NCBI GenBank assembly: GCA_024699715.1
Contig: JANPRD010000009.1
Coordinates: 1-64,000 of the forward strand
DNA length: 64,000 nt
Source of the DNA: Candidatus Methanophagales archaeon
Lineage (GTDB): Archaea > Halobacteriota > Syntropharchaeia > Alkanophagales > Methanospirareceae
Reading direction: 5' to 3'
This document shows, piece after piece, positions 21,201-30,567 of this stretch (positions are counted from its first letter, which is position 1; each line of letters begins with the position of its first letter). The translations under genes were made by a program, and so were the position numbers. Below the pieces are notes generated by a model. It had not been told where the DNA came from, searched no databases, and saw only the letters and a list, made by a program, of their open reading frames with translations.

Positions 21201-22287
21201 TTAATTCCTCACATCTTTTTGCCTTTTCTCTTTCTCTGTGCAGCCAGCCGTTGCCGCCAAACTGCCCGCTTCTTCGCTGTTGCAGCCGAGTTCCCTGCGC
21301 AGTTCGCCGAGCAGAGCGATTCTTTCAGCGACCGCCTCATGCTGATGTATGCTCTCTTCATTTATTTGAATTATGCGCACAACCGCATCATCAGGCAGCT
21401 CCTTGAAATTCTCAACGACACGAAGCGCCATCTCTCTCACGCAGTCCTCCGCAAACTTCGGATTTCTGTGCGCTTTCATCGTAACAAAAGCCTCGTCAGG
21501 TCGCTTTAGCAGTTCATATGTGCGGGCACTCATGGATTCCCCTATTATTCCTATTATTTTCTCCAAAGGAATTTTGTATTTTCCGTCAACTTCTATTGAA
21601 ATTATGCCTCTTCCTCGCTGATTATGCGTTGCAATAGGCACAACACTCAAAATCTCCTCTATTTCACGCTCAGACCTTCCTTGCTTCTTCAATGCTTCTC
21701 TCGCCAACTCCTTCATTAATTCCTGCGCACAGGGGCATGTCGTCACGCCGACGACCTCCGCACCTATCCGCTTGCGAATGACAACGCCCTCACGCCTGTC
21801 CTCCGCCTCCTCTCGCTCTCGCTGCATCCTGCAGTCGCTTCTGCTGGGCTATCCCACCGCTCTCTTCTCTGAACGCCTTCGCCTCCGCAAAAATGACGAC
21901 AGGCTCTTGGCATTCCATCGCAGTCACGGGCGTTTTTCGTTTTGCGATGAACTCGCTGCGCATCCTGACCTCTGCGACGCTCGCATATTTGTGTCGCTGA
22001 AGCAGTCTTTTTGCAACTTCCACACACAACTCTTCAATCTCGTAGAAAGGCGTATTCACCGCAGACTCAAGCACCTCATACATCGCCTCAAAGTTCCGTG
22101 AGAGGTTCGCTCCCTTCATTGAAGAGGGCAAGTCAACGAAGATGTCAAATGTGGAGACGAGAACAATCGGTCGCTTGCCTCCTTTCCTTGCGAGCTCAAC
22201 AAGCTTCTTCACATTCCTGACGCCCACTCTCGTCAGGTTGAGCGGAATCTCTGGACTGCTCGCTTGCACATCCGGTAAGTGCTTCAT
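21201..22287 (-). pseudogene. mptA: GTP cyclohydrolase MptA (FolE2 superfamily), one frameshift
   Basis: MptA makes 7,8-dihydroneopterin 2',3'-cyclic phosphate from GTP, the first step of tetrahydromethanopterin synthesis. The first frame (22287 down to 21790) holds [39 protein letters not shown] and [15 protein letters not shown]. The second frame (from about 21820) holds [29 protein letters not shown] with metal-binding His, [17 protein letters not shown] and [20 protein letters not shown]. These are in the order of Methanocaldococcus MptA, and a one-base shift in the GCGAGAGCGAGAG stretch at about 21810-21820 joins them into about 350 residues, with a short C-terminal extra. The essential role of the pathway in such an organism makes a sequence error likely. 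Start ATG 22287 has GGAGGAGAAG upstream. Confidence 0.85.
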
Positions 22288-22340: not shown

Positions 22341-23387
22341 GTGAGGGAAAAAGGCTGCGGTGCTTCTCACAATCCTTCGCTTTTAGGCGTTGGCAAACTG
22401 GAATACGGCGTGCTTGATGCTTTGCTACGCATTCTCAGCGTTGAGGATGAGCGGGTGATTGTGCGACCCCGTGTGGGCGAAGATGCAGCTGTCATTGACT
22501 TCGGCGAAAGGTATTTAGTGGCGAAAGCGGACCCGATTGTGTGCGTTGAGGAGGACATCGGCTATTACGCACCGATAATTAATGCGAATGATGTTGCAGT
22601 GATGGGAGCAAAGCCACGCTGGTTCCTCGCAACAGTGCTTCTTCCGAGAAATGCGGACGAGGAACTTGCGAATGAAATATTCAGGCAAATGAGCGAGAGT
22701 TGCAGAGAGCTAAATGTCTCAATCGTCGGCGGACACACGGAAGTCGTCGCAGATTTGGAGCGTCCGATTATTGCGGGTGCGATGCTCGGCGAGGTTGAGC
22801 GAGAGAATCTTGTGCGGAAGTGTGCGAGAGCGGGGGACGCTGTCGTGCTTGTGAAGGGCGTTGCAATTGAAGCGACGAGCATTATTGCGAGTGAGCGAAG
22901 CGAAGAGGTGAGAGCGAGGCACGGCGAAGCTTTCTACGAGCGCTGCAGAAACTTTGTGCGAGAGCCTGGCATTTCAGTTGTGCGAGAGGCGTTGCTCGCA
23001 AGAGATGTTGCGACGGCGATGCACGACCCCACAGAAGGCGGTCTGCTCGCAGGTCTCTACGAGCTCGCAGTCGCTTGCGGAAAAGGCATACTCGTTTGGA
23101 AGGATAAGATTCCGATTTACGAAGAAACTGCGGTATTGTGTGAAGATTTCGGGCTGAATCCTCTCGCAATATTCGCATCAGGCGCACTCATCGTCACCGT
23201 TCCTGAAGATAAATTGGGTTATTTGCTGCGTAAATATGAAGAGAATGGGATAAATGCGGTGAAAATAGGTGAAATAAGGGCGAAGGAGGAGGGTTTATGC
23301 ATCGTAAATGAGAGGGGCGAGAAAGAAGAGCTGAAATGCTCAGCAAAGGACGAAATAAGCGTGAAATTCGCATCTTTGCAGCACTGA
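22341..23387 (+). CDS. AIR synthase-related protein (HypE/PurM/ThiL superfamily)
   Basis: A 348-residue ATP-binding protein. Superfamily motifs: N-terminal [14 protein letters not shown] (metal-binding Asp), [31 protein letters not shown] (Gly-rich), and [20 protein letters not shown]. It has the domain order of HypE and thiamine-phosphate kinase but lacks the C-terminal Pro-Arg-Ile-Cys of true HypE. Archaeal paralogues of this group have no assigned reaction. Start is probably GTG 22341 (short upstream gap); an internal TTG just before [16 protein letters not shown] would give a more typical N-terminus. It stands between mptA and metV. Confidence 0.78.
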
Positions 23388-23480: not shown

Positions 23481-24155
23481 ATGATTATAACGAAGGAGAA
23501 GCCGTTGGAGGAGATTTTGAGTTTCTTGGAGCCATACCGCAAGGTGCTTGTCGTGGGATGCGACGGGTGCGTGCAACCTCCTCGTGGCTTAAGAGAGGCG
23601 GAGACATACGCATCGCTCATTGAGATGGCGTCAAAAGCTCGTGGTAAGCCGATTGAGTGCAAAGCGATAACAGTTTCGAGGCAGTGTTGCGAGGAAGGAC
23701 TTCCGAACTGGGTGAAGCCTGATGGATTTGAAGCGATGCTTTCGATGGCTTGCGGGATAGGCGTTCAAGTGATGAACATGATTTTCCCCGAGATACCGAC
23801 ATACCCTGCGCAGAACACCGTTTTCATGGGTGCGGAAGAGAAGCGAGAGGGTCGCATGTATGAGCTTTGTCGTGCATGTGGCGACTGCATTCTCGGCGAG
23901 ACTGGCGGTATATGCCCACGCACGAGATGTGCGAAAGGACTCATGAATGGTCCCTGCGGTGGATGCGTCGGCGGCAAGTGCGAGGTCACTGTTGAGATCA
24001 AGAATTGGAAGGGCGAAGTGATTGAAGAGGTGCAGAATGACTGCGCATGGTATCTCATCTTTGAGCGACTGCGAACATTGGGAAGGATTGACCTTTTCAG
24101 GAAGCTGAGAGACCCGACTGACCACAGCATCTGGGTGCCGCCTCGCAGGATTTGA
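23481..24155 (+). CDS. metV: MetV-like zinc/iron-sulfur partner of MetF
   Basis: A 224-residue protein of the methylene-tetrahydrofolate reductase C-terminal (MetV, DUF2148-like Cys-rich) family. VVGCDGCVQPPRGLREAETY opens a Rossmann-like domain. The C-terminal part carries dense Cys: CRACGDCILGETGGICPRTR and CAKGLMNGPCGGCVGGKCEV, enough for one [4Fe-4S] cluster and a zinc. In acetogens MetV binds MetF and connects it to iron-sulfur electron carriers. Here it precedes metF by 32 bases under a leaderless promoter, so the two should form the same complex. Together with the Hdr-like fusion downstream it indicates MetF is not driven by NAD(P)H alone. Confidence 0.88.
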   Translation: MIITKEKPLEEILSFLEPYRKVLVVGCDGCVQPPRGLREAETYASLIEMASKARGKPIECKAITVSRQCCEEGLPNWVKPDGFEAMLSMACGIGVQVMNMIFPEIPTYPAQNTVFMGAEEKREGRMYELCRACGDCILGETGGICPRTRCAKGLMNGPCGGCVGGKCEVTVEIKNWKGEVIEEVQNDCAWYLIFERLRTLGRIDLFRKLRDPTDHSIWVPPRRI

Positions 24156-24187
24156 TGTTAAATAGGAAGGAGAGGTGGTGATGGAAA

Positions 24188-25126
24188 ATGGCGGAGGAGA
24201 AGAAGGCATTTTCGGAATTAATGAAGAAGATACAGGCAGGAGAGTTCGTATACACGGGAGAATTGGAGCCGCATCGCAGTATAGATTTGTCAGAAGTGAT
24301 AAGTTGGGCGAATACTTTGAAAGAGACGGGTAGAATTACCGCTGCAAATGTCACAGACAATCCGAAGAGCGATTCAGCAATAAGCAGTTTGGCAGCATCA
24401 TACATCATTCAGCGGGAGACAGGTCTTGAAATGATTTATCAGTTGCGGACAGCAGACAGAAACAGGCTCGCACTCGTTTCAGACATTTTAGGAGCAGCGG
24501 CGCTTGGATTGAAGAACATTCTTGCGCTGACTGGCGACCACACGAAGTCAGGCACAACGCCGAGTGCGAAGCCCGTTTTTGACCTTGACGGGACGAACCT
24601 TGTGAGGCTCGTTCACACGATGGTCTACGAGGGCAAAGACCTCTGGGGAAATGAAATACATGGTCCTCGCCCCGAGCTGAATGTCGGCGCAGCAGGAAAT
24701 CCCGGCATGGAGCCTCTGGAGGCTGAGGTGCTGAAATTGGAGCGGAAGGCGGAGGCGGGTGCGGACTTCTTCCAGACGCAAGCGGTTTTTGATGTTGAGA
24801 TTGCTCGCAGATTCTTGAAGGCGATTGAACACATCGGCGTCCCGACGCTCATCGGCATCTTCCCGCCTCGCACATACGGGCAGGCTGAGTTCTTCGACAA
24901 GTTCGTCCCTGGTGTGAGCGTCCCAGCGGAGTTCATGGAGGCGTTCGCTAAATTCAAGGAACTCCCAAAAGAAAAGCGAAGAGAGAAGATAAATGAGTTC
25001 AATGTGGACTACTTCGTCGCATTCATAAAGGAAATAAAGAAAGAGAAGGCGTGTGCTGGATGCCACATCATGGCTGTCGGCTACCCAGAAGTCATCGGAC
25101 CTATAATTGAAGGCGTGGAAAAGTAA
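24188..25126 (+). CDS. metF: 5,10-methylene-tetrahydro(methano)pterin/folate reductase MetF
   Basis: A 312-residue MetF TIM barrel. YTGELEPHRSIDLSEVISWA carries the catalytic Glu region, NILALTGDHTKSG is the FAD/folate Asp loop, and GADFFQTQAVFDVEIARRFL matches the substrate strand. It interconverts methylene- and methyl-pterin using bound flavin. In ANME-1 archaea MetF is known to replace the F420-dependent Mer of methanogenesis, and the neighbouring mptA argues the carrier here is methanopterin. No obvious NAD-binding extension. It is followed 163 bases later by the flavoprotein-Hdr fusion. The substrate and electron donor are inference from family and context. Confidence 0.92.
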   Translation: MAEEKKAFSELMKKIQAGEFVYTGELEPHRSIDLSEVISWANTLKETGRITAANVTDNPKSDSAISSLAASYIIQRETGLEMIYQLRTADRNRLALVSDILGAAALGLKNILALTGDHTKSGTTPSAKPVFDLDGTNLVRLVHTMVYEGKDLWGNEIHGPRPELNVGAAGNPGMEPLEAEVLKLERKAEAGADFFQTQAVFDVEIARRFLKAIEHIGVPTLIGIFPPRTYGQAEFFDKFVPGVSVPAEFMEAFAKFKELPKEKRREKINEFNVDYFVAFIKEIKKEKACAGCHIMAVGYPEVIGPIIEGVEK

Positions 25127-25289
25127 ATAAAACAACACAAAACAACGCAAAATTTTGTGTTTTCTCTCCCTCCCCTCTCCTCCTCTCCTCTTCTTCCTCC
25201 TCACCTTCCTCTCCACCTTCCTCCCCTCTTAAGAGATGCTTACTGCATGAGGGGGATTGGGGCATGTGTCGTGGGGGAAGTGAGCGGGG

Positions 25290-28088
25290 ATGGCGTCGGA
25301 AGAGCGTCTTGCATTTTTCAAGCGTTTTGAAGCGAAGGATTTTTCGGTTGCGAGGGAAGTGCCTCGTTGCATTTCAGCGTGTCCTGCGGGTTGCGATGTG
25401 CAGCGCTACATAAAATTGATTGCGGAGGGTCGCCTCGCTGAAGCGTATGCGGTGATTCGTGAGACCGTGCCTTTTCCGGCGACAATCGGCAGGATATGCT
25501 ACCATCCATGCGAGGATGCGTGCAGGCGAAGATTCTTTGACGAGGCGGTGGCAATCGCAGCACTCAAGCGTTTCGTCGGCGACAAGTATCGTCGTAGTAA
25601 AGCGGAGAAAGCGAGGGCGGAAATAGCAGGCTCGCAGCGCTCAATTGCGGTCATCGGTGCTGGACCTGCAGGTCTCACTGCCGCTTACAGGCTCGCAAAG
25701 AAAGGCTACTCCGTGAAAATATTTGAGCGTTCGCATGTTGCGGGTGGCATGTTGTATGCGGGAATTCCGCCTTACAGACTTCCGAAGGATGTTTTAAAGA
25801 GGGAAATAGAGGATTTATGCGAGGAAGTTGATGGAAAAATAGAAATAGAGTATGGAGTTAATGTGGATAGAGAAAGATTTAGAGATATTTGTGAGGAGTA
25901 TGATGCAGTTTTTGTTGCGGTAGGGGCGCAGAAGAGCAGGCGGATGGGCATAGAAGGTGAGGATTTGGATGGAGTATTACACGGTTTGGAATTTTTGAGG
26001 CGTTTGAATCTCGGAGATGATGCAGAGATAGAGGAATTGAAGCGAGTTCTTGGCAAGAAGGTGCTTGTCGTTGGCGGAGGAAATGTTGCGATGGATGTTT
26101 CACGAAGCGCTCTCCGCTTGGGGGCGGAAGTCACGATTGCATACAGGCGGAGCAGGGAAGAGATGCCTGCGAGAGAAGAAGAGGTTCGTGAGGCTGAGGA
26201 AGAAGGCGTCAAATTCATGTTCCTGGTGAATCCTAAGCGGATAATAGGCGAAGAGAGGGTTGAGAAAGTTGAACTGATAAGGATGCGATTAGGCGCTCCA
26301 GATGCATCAGGTAGAAGGAAACCCATTCCAATTGAGGGTTCAGAGTTCTTTTTTGATGCTGATTCGGTGATAATTGCGATTGGTCAAGAGGTGGATTACG
26401 ATTTTCTGGAAGGTAGCGGCGTCAAAATTGAAAGAGGTCTGATAAAAACAGACGATAAAGGATACACAGGCGTTAAAAACATATTCGCAGGCGGTGACTG
26501 CGTCAGGGGAGCAGCTTTCGCTGTTGATGCGATTGCTGACGGTAACAGAGTTGCGGAAGCCATACACGATTTCCTCAGTGGTGCTGCTGCAGAGGATGCA
26601 GAGGGGCGTGGCTCCGCAGAGACAGAAGCGGCTGCCGGCGGCACAAAAGAGGAGGAAGAGTTCATTCGTGAGGAGCTGATGGATGAGGAGGCTCTCGGCT
26701 TGATAAAGCGAGAGAGGCGTCGTGAGATGCCCTCGCTCAGTGCGGAGGAGCGTGTTCGGAGCTTTGCGGAAATATACAAAGGCTTTTCAGAGGAGGATGC
26801 TCTCGCAGAAGCGGGGAGATGCCTGCGTTGCAGGAGTTGCTTGCTCGTTGCAGAGCCTGCTGAGGAGGCTGCTGTTGAAGCGGTTGCGAAGGCGGGCGTT
26901 GAGATTGAGCGTGATTTAGAGCATCTTGCGCTCCTGAAGGGCGTGAACAAGTGTGCGGAGTGCGGTGAATGCACTGCAGCGTGTCCCGTCACTGCGCTTG
27001 AACCCGCTTTCTCGCCTCGCAGGGTTGCAGGAATGGCGTTAATGGAGAGCGCTTCAAAGCTCGTGAATGGCGAAGACATTTGGCTCTGCCTCTCCTGCGG
27101 CATCTGCAATGCCTTGTGTCCTTACGGCGTTGACTTTCTCGGCTTCATGCAGGGTCTCCGAAAATTCGCATTCATGCGGGGCAACTTCCCTCGCTACGAG
27201 GAAGGGCGTGTTATTGCTGTTGAGAATGTTGCGGGAGCGGAAGGAGGAGAAGAGAAGAAGAAAAAAGCAGCATTCAGCGGCAGGTTGAACTGGTTGTTGC
27301 GAGGAGGAGGGGACTCGCTGAAGGTTGCGGAGAAGGGCGAAGTTTACTACTTTGCGGGCTGTCTCTCTTATTTAAGCAGGATTTACGCAGAGCGGGAGAA
27401 TTTGCATTTGGAGGAAATTGCGAGGTCAGCAGTGAGGCTTCTGAACGCAGTCGGCGTCGTTCCTGCGGTGAGCGAAGAAGAGAGATGCTGCGGTCACGAC
27501 CTGCTCTGGGCGGGAGACGAGCATCGCTTCAAAGAGCTCATGCATGCGAACATAGAAGCGATAAAGAAAAGCGGGGCGAAGGTTGTCGTTTTCACATGTG
27601 CGGAGTGCCTGCGAACATTTGAAGTGGATTACAGACGCTTCCTTGCGGAAGAGGGCGTTGAACTCGACCTGAAATTCATGCATATTTCGGAGTTCTTGAT
27701 TGAGCGTGGCATTTTTGAAAAAATTCGCCCCTCCGCTTCCGCAGGAATCGTTACTTACCACGACCCTTGCAGGCTGAGGCATCTACGCATTTTTGAAGCG
27801 CCCCGTGAGCTCTTGCGAAATGTTGCGGAATTGCGAGAGATGCCCCATAATAGAGAGCGGGGGTTGTGCTGCGGTGTCGGAGCGATGCTCACATGCGGGG
27901 CGGTGGCGAGAGCAATTCAGGCTCAAAGACTGGACGAAGCAGAGCGGACGGGGGCGTCAAAATTGGTTGTGGCATGCCCCAAATGCTGGATTCATCTTGA
28001 CTGTGCTGTCTCCGCGCTCGGACGGAAAATAGAAGTGGAGGACTTGACGCTCACGCTCGCTAACGCACTGCTTGGAAAAAGCGAATAA
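25290..28088 (+). CDS. NfnB/GltD-like FAD-iron-sulfur oxidoreductase fused to HdrC- and HdrB/D-like modules
   Basis: A 932-residue fusion. Residues 20-80: two Cys groups (C27, C31, C35 and C70, C74, C78) of the GltD-type iron-sulfur domain. 117-130: FAD fold IAVIGAGPAGLTAAYRL. About 260-275: second Rossmann VLVVGGGNVAMDVSRSAL for NAD(P)H. About 395-410: GVKNIFAGGDCVRGAA. Then a linker with C-L-R-C-R-S-C, and two [4Fe-4S] motifs CAECGECTAACP and CLSCGICNALCP as in HdrC. The last 230 residues have two CCG domains (ERCCGHDLLW ... CAECL; GLCCGVGAMLTCG ... CPKCW) as in HdrB/HdrD, where a noncubane cluster reduces disulfides. The layout looks like an electron carrier between NAD(P)H, ferredoxin or a thiol and MetFV. 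Start ATG 25290 follows GGGGGAAG. Confidence 0.85.
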   Translation: MASEERLAFFKRFEAKDFSVAREVPRCISACPAGCDVQRYIKLIAEGRLAEAYAVIRETVPFPATIGRICYHPCEDACRRRFFDEAVAIAALKRFVGDKYRRSKAEKARAEIAGSQRSIAVIGAGPAGLTAAYRLAKKGYSVKIFERSHVAGGMLYAGIPPYRLPKDVLKREIEDLCEEVDGKIEIEYGVNVDRERFRDICEEYDAVFVAVGAQKSRRMGIEGEDLDGVLHGLEFLRRLNLGDDAEIEELKRVLGKKVLVVGGGNVAMDVSRSALRLGAEVTIAYRRSREEMPAREEEVREAEEEGVKFMFLVNPKRIIGEERVEKVELIRMRLGAPDASGRRKPIPIEGSEFFFDADSVIIAIGQEVDYDFLEGSGVKIERGLIKTDDKGYTGVKNIFAGGDCVRGAAFAVDAIADGNRVAEAIHDFLSGAAAEDAEGRGSAETEAAAGGTKEEEEFIREELMDEEALGLIKRERRREMPSLSAEERVRSFAEIYKGFSEEDALAEAGRCLRCRSCLLVAEPAEEAAVEAVAKAGVEIERDLEHLALLKGVNKCAECGECTAACPVTALEPAFSPRRVAGMALMESASKLVNGEDIWLCLSCGICNALCPYGVDFLGFMQGLRKFAFMRGNFPRYEEGRVIAVENVAGAEGGEEKKKKAAFSGRLNWLLRGGGDSLKVAEKGEVYYFAGCLSYLSRIYAERENLHLEEIARSAVRLLNAVGVVPAVSEEERCCGHDLLWAGDEHRFKELMHANIEAIKKSGAKVVVFTCAECLRTFEVDYRRFLAEEGVELDLKFMHISEFLIERGIFEKIRPSASAGIVTYHDPCRLRHLRIFEAPRELLRNVAELREMPHNRERGLCCGVGAMLTCGAVARAIQAQRLDEAERTGASKLVVACPKCWIHLDCAVSALGRKIEVEDLTLTLANALLGKSE

Positions 28089-28211: not shown

Positions 28212-30509
28212 TCATCTATCCGCTTCAGGCGGGAAGTATCCAAAGCTAATGTAAACAGCCCAGAAGTCGGCGAGTCTTTCGCCCTTCACCGCCTCCATGA
28301 AAGCACGCAAGTTAGCGAGGCAGGGTGTTGCCGCTCTCACTCTGTAAGGCACATTTGACTCGCCATCGCTTATGATTGAGTATAGTAGCGAGCCACGAGC
28401 AGCCTCTGTAATTGCTGAGAACTCTCCACGAGGCAGCACAATATTCCCGAATGCTCGGTAGAAATATCCTCGTATGTCTGAAGAAAACATGTCCTTGCAC
28501 TCACCGAGAACATCCTCGCTCAAAATCTCACCTTTAATATGCTGGAGGGCGTCGACAGCCTGCTGAATGATGCGGAAACTCTGCTTCATCTCCTCAACAC
28601 GCACGAGAAACCTCGCAAGTGCGTCGCCTTCGTCGCTCACAGGAATCTCAAACTCAACATCGTCGTAAGCCTCGTAAGGCTCAATCTTCCTCACATCATA
28701 CTCAACGCCTGAAGCCCTCAAGAAGGGTCCTACGCATCCCAAACGAATCGCATCTTCCTTTGAAAGCACGCCAACGCCCTTCAATCTCGCAATCGTCACA
28801 GGGTTTCGCACAAATATGTCCATGTAGCGTTCCCATCTTTTCCTCACCGCAGATGTGAATTTCTTCACCGCTTGAAGCACTTCTTGAGGAACATCCCGCC
28901 TTATCCCGCCAGGAACAATGAAAGAAGTGGTGATTCTCGCACCTGTTATCTTCGTAAGGAGGTCGACAAGCACCTCTCGCAGTGCAAAGCAATACATAAA
29001 TCCTGTTGTATGACCGAGAAACATCGGACCAATCGCAGCATCGTAAAGGAAAGTGCCTATTCTGCTCAGCTCTGCAAGAATCATTCTGATGTATTTTGCA
29101 CGCTCAGGCACTTCAATTTTAAGCGCACGCTCAATCGCACGCACATATCCGAGTGTGATGTTCGCACTGTCAACGATTGAGCAGCGCTCAAATAGCGGCA
29201 TGCTTTGAATGTAAAGCAGGTTCTCTGCGGTTTTCTCCATGCCACGATGCACATACCCAGGGTCAGGAATCGCATCCGTGATGATGTCGCCTTTCACCCT
29301 CAATATTGTGCGGAGATGCCCGCTTCCCGGATGGTGAGGCCCTACGAACACCACATATTCATCGCTCTCATGAGCCTCCTTCAAATCAAAAGGAACGGGC
29401 AACTCCAAGTCCGAAGGAGGCTCATTCCTCACATCTTCTTCGCCCTTCTCAAGCACATATCTCGCCTCTCTCAACTTGAAATCCTTCCTCAACGGGTATT
29501 CTGGCGAGTCAGGCGCAAGAAAGAACTTCTTGCCCATCCAAGGGTTTCCATCAAACCACACACCGAAGAACTCGTGCATCTCCCTTTCCTGATAATCCGC
29601 ACTCTCCCAAACATCTTTCAAGCTCGCAACTCTCGCATCTTCACGAGGAATCTCGCAGAAAACGCTCAAAAGAACGGGCTTCAATTCCTCATGCGAATAA
29701 CTGGAGACCACATATTCAACAATAAATTTATTCTCATGCGGAACATCAACGACATTCACGCTCTTCACATGGTCAAATCCCATCTCCTTTAATTTCAGAG
29801 CAACATCTTTCATTTTTTCTCGTGTGGTTTTCAACGCAATCCTGTTCATTCCGATGATTGTCGCCTTTGCATTCTCACCGCTCAGCTCAGCGACCAATTC
29901 CCTGCCGAAAGACCATGCCTTTTCCGCATTTTCATCTCGCATGTCTATGCGAACTGCAGGCGTAAGCGCAAAAATTTTCGGCGTCGTCGGGACAAGACGC
30001 TCTTCAATCGCCTCTTTCGGCGGAAGTTCAGCATCCTTAAACTGAATTGTTGTGCGGTCAATGCCCTCTATTTTGTCTTGAACCGCTCTGCAGCCCCTAA
30101 GCAAGCCCTCAGGCGTCGGCGGACACCCTGGCACGAAAAAATCCACAGGAACAACATCCGAAGGTCGCACAATATTGTAGCCGTTCCAGAAGAGTCCGCC
30201 TTTCTGACCGCATGCACCAAGCACAATCACAAACTTCGGCTCGGGCATCTGACCCCAAACGAAGCGCAAAGCACGAGCCATTTTTCGTGTGATTGCACCC
30301 TCCACGATGATGAAGTTCGTTTGTCTTGAGATGCCGTAGTTGAGAACGCCCCAGCGCTCACCGTCATATCCGCAGGCGAAAGCGTGAGCCAACTCAACAC
30401 CGCAACACGCAGTCACAAAGTGCGCAGGCCACAAACTCCAGCGAGTCCCCCACCTCTTTATCGGTGCAAGCACGCCCGAATTCAAAAATTCAACGCTCTC
30501 ATCCGACAT
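28212..30509 (-). CDS. Fused complex I subunits B-C-D (Fpo/Fqo/Nuo type)
   Basis: One 765-residue chain holds three peripheral-arm subunits. B, residues about 1-175: TACCGVELAHAF, LGACGQKGG and PGCPPTPEGLL give the four Cys of cluster N2. C, about 190-370: WESADYQEREMHEFFGVWFD and PEYPLRKDF, the 30-kDa signature. D, about 390-765: FVGPHHPGSGHLRTILRV, PGYVHRGMEKTAENLLYIQS and a long helical body, the quinone-site subunit. In methanogens and most bacteria these are separate; CD fusions are common and BCD fusions rarer. ATG 30509 is preceded by GGGAAGGGG, so the frame up to 30557 is leader. It is last in the J-K-M-L-N-A-BCD operon. Subunits H and I, needed to couple it to the membrane arm, are not adjacent. 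Confidence 0.92.
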   Translation of the reverse strand: MSDESVEFLNSGVLAPIKRWGTRWSLWPAHFVTACCGVELAHAFACGYDGERWGVLNYGISRQTNFIIVEGAITRKMARALRFVWGQMPEPKFVIVLGACGQKGGLFWNGYNIVRPSDVVPVDFFVPGCPPTPEGLLRGCRAVQDKIEGIDRTTIQFKDAELPPKEAIEERLVPTTPKIFALTPAVRIDMRDENAEKAWSFGRELVAELSGENAKATIIGMNRIALKTTREKMKDVALKLKEMGFDHVKSVNVVDVPHENKFIVEYVVSSYSHEELKPVLLSVFCEIPREDARVASLKDVWESADYQEREMHEFFGVWFDGNPWMGKKFFLAPDSPEYPLRKDFKLREARYVLEKGEEDVRNEPPSDLELPVPFDLKEAHESDEYVVFVGPHHPGSGHLRTILRVKGDIITDAIPDPGYVHRGMEKTAENLLYIQSMPLFERCSIVDSANITLGYVRAIERALKIEVPERAKYIRMILAELSRIGTFLYDAAIGPMFLGHTTGFMYCFALREVLVDLLTKITGARITTSFIVPGGIRRDVPQEVLQAVKKFTSAVRKRWERYMDIFVRNPVTIARLKGVGVLSKEDAIRLGCVGPFLRASGVEYDVRKIEPYEAYDDVEFEIPVSDEGDALARFLVRVEEMKQSFRIIQQAVDALQHIKGEILSEDVLGECKDMFSSDIRGYFYRAFGNIVLPRGEFSAITEAARGSLLYSIISDGESNVPYRVRAATPCLANLRAFMEAVKGERLADFWAVYISFGYFPPEADR

Positions 30510-30567
30510 TTTAAAACACCCCTTCCCTCTCTCTTCCACTCTCTCTCCCACTTTCACCGCTCCTCTT

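Follow-up and report, generated by a model that had tools for sequence, protein, structure and literature searches.

The metV–metF–fusion locus

The DNA analysed here (the window) is a stretch of 64,000 nt, positions 1-64,000 of the forward strand of contig JANPRD010000009.1, from the assembly of a Candidatus Methanophagales archaeon (GCA_024699715.1). Three ORFs of the plus strand, already delineated as such in a first-pass annotation, encode MetV, MetF and a 932-residue fusion protein (table 1), and their neighbours include mptA, an AIR-synthase-like gene and convergent fqo genes. The divergent mptA–metV order is common in ANME-1, including two further genomes (G023 and G024) in which the fusion gene likewise follows metF. 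The cysteine motifs of MetV are common to all four loci linked in this way, and a sequence search of the PDB returned no relative of this protein; the window MetF is of the Syntropharchaeum/Alkanophaga type by its position in the MetF tree. The tract between metF and the fusion gene is T/C-rich and terminator-like, and comparable T/C-rich tracts occupy this position in the other three linked genomes, so co-transcription of the two genes is uncertain; no clear TATA box was seen in the window's intergenic gap. The ORFs and their Pfam matches revealed neither HdrA nor MvhD in the metVF–fusion gene group, and no NfnA gene at the locus.

Table 1. Features of the metVF–fusion locus in the window (residue numbers refer to the fusion protein).
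Feature	Coordinates	Strand	Supporting match
mptA/folE2-type GTP cyclohydrolase, divergent neighbour, two overlapping ORFs	21201..22287	-	PF02649
metV (MTHFR C-terminal-domain MetV subunit, Cys-rich, 224 aa)	23481..24155	+	PF12225 E=3e-26
metF (methylene-(H4F/H4MPT) reductase, 312 aa)	24188..25126	+	PF02219 E=2e-32
Intergenic gap metF–fusion, 163 nt, long pyrimidine-rich tract after metF stop	25127..25289	+	
GltD–HdrC–HdrB fusion, 932 aa	25290..28088	+	
Fer4_20 + FAD/NADP(H) two-Rossmann module, StnC/NfnABC (K93) type, residues 24-430	25359..26579	+	
Helical segment ending RCLRCRSC (C511, C514, C517), residues 478-517	26721..26840	+	
HdrC-like CxxCxxCxxxCP pair (555-566, 600-611), residues 549-614	26934..27131	+	PF13183, HdrC PDB matches
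HdrB-like part, two complete CCG motifs, residues 686-918	27345..28043	+	PF02754 x2

The earlier suggestion that MetFV replaces Mer fits the gene content of the window's own MAG (80% complete), which has no Mer (TIGR03555, E<=1e-40) and a single MTHFR-family gene. This genome also has no F420:NADP oxidoreductase (Fno) above threshold. Fno was rejected as a general NADP link, as it exceeded the cut-off in one genome only (G015), which also encodes Mer and has no MetF match.

Domain architecture of the fusion protein

The first-pass annotation described the fusion as a GltD/NfnB-like module joined to HdrC-like [4Fe-4S] clusters and two CCG domains, and this list of parts is borne out by Pfam, which recognizes Fer4_20 (PF14691), PF07992, PF13183 and two PF02754 CCG stretches; the top NCBIfam matches are PRK12771 for the N-terminal half and TfrB (CoM/CoB fumarate reductase) for the C-terminal half. 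No second flavin domain, no thioredoxin-reductase-like FAD domain of HdrA and no NuoG-like domain was detected in the chain by Pfam. Both CxxCxxCxxxCP motifs are conserved in 20/20 sequences, as are the cysteines of the two CCG motifs (C691/C733-C734/C770/C773 and C827/C860-C861/C896/C899), and each of the 27 Fe-S cysteines is kept in every alignment row having a residue at that position. The structure predicted for the whole chain (pLDDT 67.5, pTM 0.45) is unreliable as to domain arrangement, and its best Foldseek matches confirm the GltD part only. The fusion is real and more than a chance arrangement, being found in 22 genomes with its Fe-S cysteines all conserved, and the literature compared holds no name or description for the order GltD–HdrC–HdrB in one chain.

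Among solved structures, the A subunit of NfnABC and StnC come closest to the fusion, closer than NfnL. These proteins (8oh5, 9n5u, 9bov) are the top match, by sequence and by fold, for residues 25-562, and they share with the fusion a lysine at the flavin-proximal cluster and a GltD module with the RCLxC segment and ferredoxin clusters behind it; in NfnB, by contrast, the helical segment precedes the module. They differ in their NuoG/FdhF-like parts, in place of which the fusion has HdrC–HdrB, and the bifurcating module StnAB is not encoded at the locus. The lysine (K93) is invariant (18/18) at the position where bifurcating NfnB has a glutamate; the fused GltD modules extracted from ANME-1 all have lysine, and canonical NfnB-size proteins have glutamate. 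The GxGxxA fold and the YRR motif of NADP-binding Nfn are conserved in the full-length rows, which supports the earlier proposal of NAD(P)H use and suggests that NADP would be the nucleotide preferred. With NfnB/NfnL of NfnAB (5jca, 4ylf) the fusion shares the two-Rossmann FAD/NADPH module, two [4Fe-4S] clusters and an arginine (R163) aligned with the N5-contacting R201 of NfnB, but an NfnAB-type bifurcating module was rejected on account of the lysine, the order of the modules and the missing NfnA. R163 does not discriminate the bifurcating type, since StnC has the equivalent arginine as well, and the GltD flavin of StnC is non-bifurcating according to structure and mutagenesis (PMC10482914). 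Judging from these residues, the single flavin of the fusion most likely does not bifurcate.

Distribution and genomic context

The fusion occurs in 22 of the 58 genomes of the class, all from ANME-1 or its sister family Alkanophagaceae, and no full-length counterpart was found in about 340 further genomes of the phylum. It is absent from many MetF-bearing ANME-1 genomes, and strict co-occurrence of MetF with GltD modules fails as well, genome G018 (95% complete) having MetF and no GltD module. The first-pass annotation had asked whether the fusion is always next to metFV, and took a location mostly far from these genes as evidence against its model. The fusion gene directly follows metF in only four of the 22 genomes and lies elsewhere in the other 18, so that a fixed partnership must be rejected. 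The four linked genomes, which represent the window's lineage (ANME-1c) and the genus g6, nevertheless fall into two distinct clades in the tree of the fusion and carry two deeply different MetF types. Because two lineages with two MetF types share the gene order, the pairing is unlikely to be due to chance, and the tie to metFV appears to be real, although partial. The idea of a dedicated metFV enzyme is not supported, given the unlinked copies and the other neighbours in Alkanophagaceae. The CCG motifs are intact in the unlinked copies too, which suggests a disulfide/dithiol chemistry independent of MetF.

In most genomes the fusion gene is solitary. Its flanks differ from genus to genus in ANME-1, and no other fixed partner emerged there; in Alkanophagaceae two hdrA genes lie beside it, joined in genome G002 by hdrCB. 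The fusion (22 genomes) and a protein of about 850 aa of the HdrA(N)-GltD type (14 genomes) never occur together in one genome (n=53; P=1e-4, ignoring phylogeny), as if the two might replace each other.

Comparison with known systems

The Hdr-type MetVF-HdrCBA-MvhD systems of Moorella thermoacetica and Sporomusa ovata (PMC9430772) share with the window locus MetV, MetF, HdrC, HdrB and a GltD module, which in Moorella is inserted in the MetVF-linked HdrA; in Sporomusa, contact between HdrB and MetF has been demonstrated, each pulling the other down (PMC9430772). The locus likewise combines adjacent metV and metF with HdrC and HdrB in the same gene group. It differs in having no HdrA and no MvhD, in the union of GltD, HdrC and HdrB in one chain, in being archaeal (and presumably H4MPT-dependent) and in that the fusion is usually unlinked to metVF in relatives.

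The type III HdrA proteins HdrA9/10/11 of ANME-1, which bear a GltD/NfnB insert and for which a role in linking MetF electrons to NAD(P)H has been proposed (PMC9012536, PMC12054007), occur in the same organisms, one being encoded on contig C13. Their GltD modules cluster with that of the fusion in the tree and share the lysine at the cluster site. Unlike them, the fusion has no HdrA FAD domain around its GltD module, which is N-terminal and joined to HdrC–HdrB. Finally, a pair of CxxCxxCxxxCP clusters with two CCG motifs, both complete, behind them, as in HdrD, HdrBC and TfrB, marks the C-terminal half as a putative catalytic unit of this kind, here fused to GltD and with neither membrane HdrE nor the FAD-containing TfrA as a partner at the locus.

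Possible function of the fusion protein

The fusion is best read as a soluble, NADP(H)-linked electron-transfer subunit of the Hdr type, probably non-bifurcating and with interchangeable partners, which in the window's organism would probably work with MetVF as an Hdr-type enzyme devoid of HdrA. We put this forward tentatively, giving it a little less than an even chance. It draws support from the domains with their conserved cysteines, lysine and NADP-binding motifs, from the kinship with StnC and NfnABC, from the metV–metF–fusion order in two clades, from the joining of metVF to other redox modules in the class, from the Sporomusa and Moorella enzymes and from the lack of Mer and Fno above threshold in the window genome. 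Weighing against it are the 18 genomes with unlinked copies, the many MetF-bearing ANME-1 genomes devoid of the fusion, the terminator-like tract behind metF, the intact CCG motifs of the unlinked copies and the unreliable domain arrangement in the structure model. Electrons would pass between NADP(H), FAD, the [4Fe-4S] clusters of the GltD part, the two [4Fe-4S] clusters of the HdrC part and the two non-cubane [4Fe-4S] clusters of the HdrB part. In Alkanophagaceae its partner may be the tandem HdrA pair; for the window's lineage and g6 it may be MetVF, and in the window's organism electrons from CH3-H4MPT oxidation would then reach NADP+ in a near-isoenergetic reaction. The intact HdrB end might serve as a docking and exit site towards MetV/MetF, or else as a second site for CoM-SH/CoB-SH.

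The strongest rival, which we consider somewhat unlikely, sees in the fusion an oxidoreductase that operates on its own across ANME-1, between NADP(H) and CoM-S-S-CoB (or another dithiol/disulfide), its proximity to metFV in four genomes being incidental or only regulatory. The mostly solitary genes, the TfrB-like C-terminal half (TfrB being a CoM/CoB enzyme) and the mutual exclusion with the HdrA(N)-GltD type speak for it, as do the two complete CCG motifs, the first of which is degenerate in the aligned chain of 9ojn, a CCG protein without Hdr annotation. It is harder to reconcile with the fusion directly behind metF in two lineages with two MetF types. Moreover, textbook potentials make it strongly uphill for NADP+ to oxidize the thiols, and in the opposite direction the enzyme would squander heterodisulfide needed by reverse Mcr.

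In a bolder version of the preferred reading, which we regard as unlikely, ANME-1c and g6 would possess a methyl-H4MPT dehydrogenase made up of MetVF and the fusion, free of HdrA, linked to NADP(H) and also in electron exchange with the thiol pool of CoM and CoB. Rather improbable, too, is the possibility that bifurcation takes place at a separate HdrA, unlinked in ANME-1, which would obtain its NADP(H) and HdrBC functions from the fusion, with GltD as a mid-potential port as in StnABC. The hdrCB–fusion–hdrA–hdrA cluster of Alkanophagaceae (G001/G002), the location of the other ANME-1 GltD modules inside HdrA proteins (PMC9012536; PMC12054007) and the StnC precedent (PMC10482914) would all accord with it. 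However, the ANME-1 flanks examined show no hdrA next to the fusion, an HdrCB part is already built into the fusion itself, and dependence of ANME-1 on the Alkanophagaceae HdrA pair is not supported, an ortholog at E<=1e-120 being missing from the window genome and most other carriers. As for the first-pass model of a MetV–MetF–fusion complex confurcating at the fusion's own flavin, from methyl-pterin oxidation to NAD(P) and a disulfide or ferredoxin, the presence of NADP(H), dithiol and MetVF modules in one gene group and of R163 hardly outweighs K93, the StnC-like order, the non-discriminating nature of that arginine, the lack of NfnA and HdrA at the locus and the unlinked copies in 18/22 genomes, and we deem it very improbable.

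Metabolic implications

ANME-1 archaea lack Mer and generally also F420:NADP oxidoreductase. A quarter of the electrons from methane are released at MetF, and the route by which these return to energy metabolism is named as an important open question in PMC9012536. The fusion offers a concrete candidate for this re-entry, encoded by an expressible and assayable gene set. If the bolder version of the preferred reading is correct, a direct junction between MetF, NADP(H) and the heterodisulfide would replace Mer and F420:NADP oxidoreductase and would explain the connection of NADP(H) to methane oxidation in ANME-1. That electrons from methane are linked to NADP(H) by the fusion is plausible but unproven, and most related genomes have the fusion elsewhere or not at all. 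In our survey of the class, metVF is also joined to several other redox modules (hdrA–FrhB–hdrA, MvhD/MvhG and NuoB/Mrp), and the metVF-linked hdrA clusters recovered in ANME-1 were not found in the genome set of PMC9012536.

Gene content of the metVF locus

As proposed in the first-pass annotation, metV, metF and a long open reading frame (ORF) lie on one strand at the positions listed in the table. Searches against NCBIfam placed residues 1 to ~560 of the encoded fusion closest to PRK12771/GltA-like proteins and the final ~380 residues closest to TfrB, a subunit of the CoM/CoB-dependent fumarate reductase.

Features of the metVF locus and its surroundings.
Feature	Position	Strand	Annotation
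mptA-like gene	21201-22287	-	GTP cyclohydrolase, two overlapping ORFs (165 + 208 aa)
AIR-synthase-like gene	22341-23387	+	
metV	23481-24155	+	Pfam MetV family PF12225
metF	24188-25126	+	Pfam MTHFR PF02219
fusion ORF, 932 residues	25290-28088	+	Pfam Fer4_20, Pyr_redox_2, dicluster ferredoxin domain, two CCG domains
781-aa ORF	28212-30557	-	NuoB, NuoC and NuoD domains; fqo/nuo-like cluster

The window's MAG (1.49 Mb, ~80% complete) contains one MTHFR-family gene; at this completeness, neither Mer (E<=1e-40) nor F420:NADP oxidoreductase (above cut-off) was recovered from it. The sole member of the same family with both of the latter above cut-off is G015, which has neither a MetF match nor a GltD module. 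The nearest relative in the class scan is G033, matching the locus of Candidatus Methanoxibalbensis ujae in the species collection. Since Methanoxibalbensis is assigned to ANME-1c in the literature, the window organism most likely belongs there too.

The mptA homologue is a single ORF of ~320-350 aa in most relatives, and its split in the window is a frameshift, possibly an assembly error. The AIR-synthase-like protein encoded between mptA and metV scored under every curated cut-off for HypE, ThiL, SelD and methanogenesis marker 2; in G049 (L200), metF is followed by a genuine HypE gene. The Nuo-type ORF is convergent with the fusion gene.

Distribution and conservation of the fusion

The fusion is a genuine, conserved protein. 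In a species-level scan, every full-length relative belonged to a MAG of ANME-1 or a related group, labelled Methanophagales, Methanoxibalbensis, Alkanophagales or more broadly (Methanosarcinales and similar). Within the class it occurs in 22 of 58 genomes, 20 from the window's family and two from the sister family Alkanophagaceae, counting one divided between two contigs (G026); the genomes are mostly MAGs, many 60-90% complete, and absences are soft. A scan of 394 genomes of the phylum added no full-length fusion from outside the class at E<=1e-110, and its two additional matches (G090 and G098) end near residue 530.

Across 20 aligned fusions, the GltD-cluster cysteines (27, 31, 35, 70, 74, 78), those at 511, 514 and 517, those of two HdrC motifs (555-565, 600-610) and the residues of CCG motifs 1 (691/733/734/770/773) and 2 (827/860/861/896/899) are kept in every row with a residue there. 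The two motifs for non-cubane clusters are thus complete, as in HdrB/HdrD and unlike in the CCG protein 9ojn, whose first CCG motif is degenerate in the alignment. The whole-chain structure model was poor (pLDDT 67.5, pTM 0.45).

Linkage to metVF and other MetVF partners

Gene order was read around the fusion and around metF in genomes of the whole class. Four genomes have metV-metF-fusion in this order on one strand: the window's own, Methanoxibalbensis (G033), G023 and G024. In the remaining 18 carriers the fusion lies away from metF, mostly alone among unrelated genes; the first-pass annotation itself named such a distance as refuting, and it argues against a dedicated metFV enzyme. The linkage itself is not random, since it appears in two fusion clades with two distant MetF types. 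The window and G033 form one fusion clade, with G023 and G024 in another, beside the unlinked G052; in the MetF tree, a long, fully supported branch divides the Syntropharchaeum/Alkanophaga type of the first pair from the common ANME-1 type of the second. Upstream of metV, the window shares a divergent mptA with G023, G024 and many further ANME-1 genomes. Taken together, these patterns mean that either the fusion was relocated behind metF twice or it was placed there early and metVF was later exchanged in place. All four linked genomes have a terminator-like stretch, rich in pyrimidines or in T, in the metF-fusion gap.

Other redox genes also adjoin metV-metF. The pair is followed by hdrA–FrhB/FdhB-like–hdrA in the ANME-1 genomes G004 (L212), G013 (L171) and G047 (L196), and by hdrA and an FrhB/FdhB-like gene in G051 (L202), where the examined stretch covers only these two. 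MetF in these four clusters is of a third type, which Syntropharchaeum-level genomes also carry. Several hdrA genes stand behind metV-metF in the Syntropharchaeum-level G056 and G057, and MvhD- and MvhG-like genes in G005. PMC9012536 reports MetF–HdrA clusters in none of the ANME-1 genomes analysed there. In Alkanophagaceae (G001, C150, L204; G002, C6, L205/L215), NuoB- and Mrp/NuoL-like antiporter genes follow on the same strand, as if MetVF were feeding a complex-I-like membrane complex. MetVF seems as a rule to exchange its partners, of which the fusion is one.

The flavin module

By sequence, the solved structures nearest to the module are NfnABC subunit A (9n5u, 9bov) and StnC (8oh5), with NfnL (5jca) behind; by fold, NfnL is intermixed with them. 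In StnC and NfnABC-A, as in the fusion, a helical segment ending in RCLxC follows the GltD module, whereas in NfnL the helical segment precedes it. According to PMC10482914, StnC has a lysine (K170) and NfnB a glutamate at the flavin-proximal [4Fe-4S] cluster, and the StnC flavin is non-bifurcating. The corresponding lysine, K93, is present in 18/18 fusion sequences; a motif scan, from which two fusion rows matching elsewhere were left out, found Lys in all fused GltD modules from ANME-1 and Glu in canonical NfnB-size proteins. R163 is the counterpart of the NfnB arginine contacting N5, likewise present in StnC. Because the RCLxC order and K93 are StnC-like, and StnC is non-bifurcating, the flavin of the fusion itself is likely to be of the ordinary NADP(H)-dehydrogenase kind. 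A GxGxxA fold and a YRR motif, shared with an NADP-bound Nfn structure, suggest that the cofactor may be NADP(H) rather than NAD(H); for type III HdrA, PMC12054007 argues for NAD from a GxGxxG motif.

Possible role

The accessible open-licence literature, searched mostly by term, names no GltD–HdrC–HdrB chain. PMC9430772 describes mutual binding of HdrB and MetF in Sporomusa and a GltD insert in the MetVF-linked HdrA of Moorella. Compared with these Hdr-type MetVF enzymes, the window locus would in the simplest reading be an HdrA-less form, in which the fusion would open NADP+ to MetVF electrons along a path linking NADP(H), FAD, [4Fe-4S], HdrC clusters and HdrB non-cubane clusters. An adapter from MetVF to NADP+ is the likeliest of the four readings considered, if tentative. 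On textbook potentials, transfer from methyl-H4MPT to NADP+ would be near equilibrium, since methylene-/methyl-H4MPT and NADP both lie at about -320 mV; the heterodisulfide lies at about -140 mV.

A stand-alone NADP(H):dithiol enzyme, to which the many solitary fusion genes might point, is rather unlikely: thiol oxidation by NADP+ is uphill and would require ferredoxin and a bifurcating flavin. The candidate for such a flavin would be HdrA, not the fusion, and two hdrA genes do follow the fusion in both sister-family genomes (in G002 a separate hdrCB precedes it); set beside its unrelated neighbours elsewhere, an HdrA-dependent unit appears distinctly improbable. Very doubtful is confurcation at the fusion itself, as first suggested, given the invariant lysine and StnC-like module order versus the NfnB glutamate.

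Relation to other GltD proteins of ANME-1

GltD modules with lysine occur in the class in three settings: inside ~1150-aa HdrA (HdrA9-11/type III in PMC9012536 and PMC12054007), in ~850-aa HdrA-fragment–GltD proteins adjoining hdrA and an MvhD-like gene, and in the fusion. A quick tree with some long branches groups all three, separate from canonical NfnB. The fusion (22/53) and the ~850-aa type (14/53) were found together in none of the genomes (P=1e-4 on the assumption of independent genomes, which does not hold). The window's MAG also carries an HdrA9-11-like HdrA–GltD gene (G000:C13:147877-149405; L003, L006, L158). Identical or near-identical nucleotide tracts (67/67, about 104/107) within an alignment averaging 80% point to gene conversion between this gene and the fusion gene. 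The HdrA–GltD gene is read in two overlapping frames (438 + 779 aa), the shift sitting in a purine-rich simple repeat.
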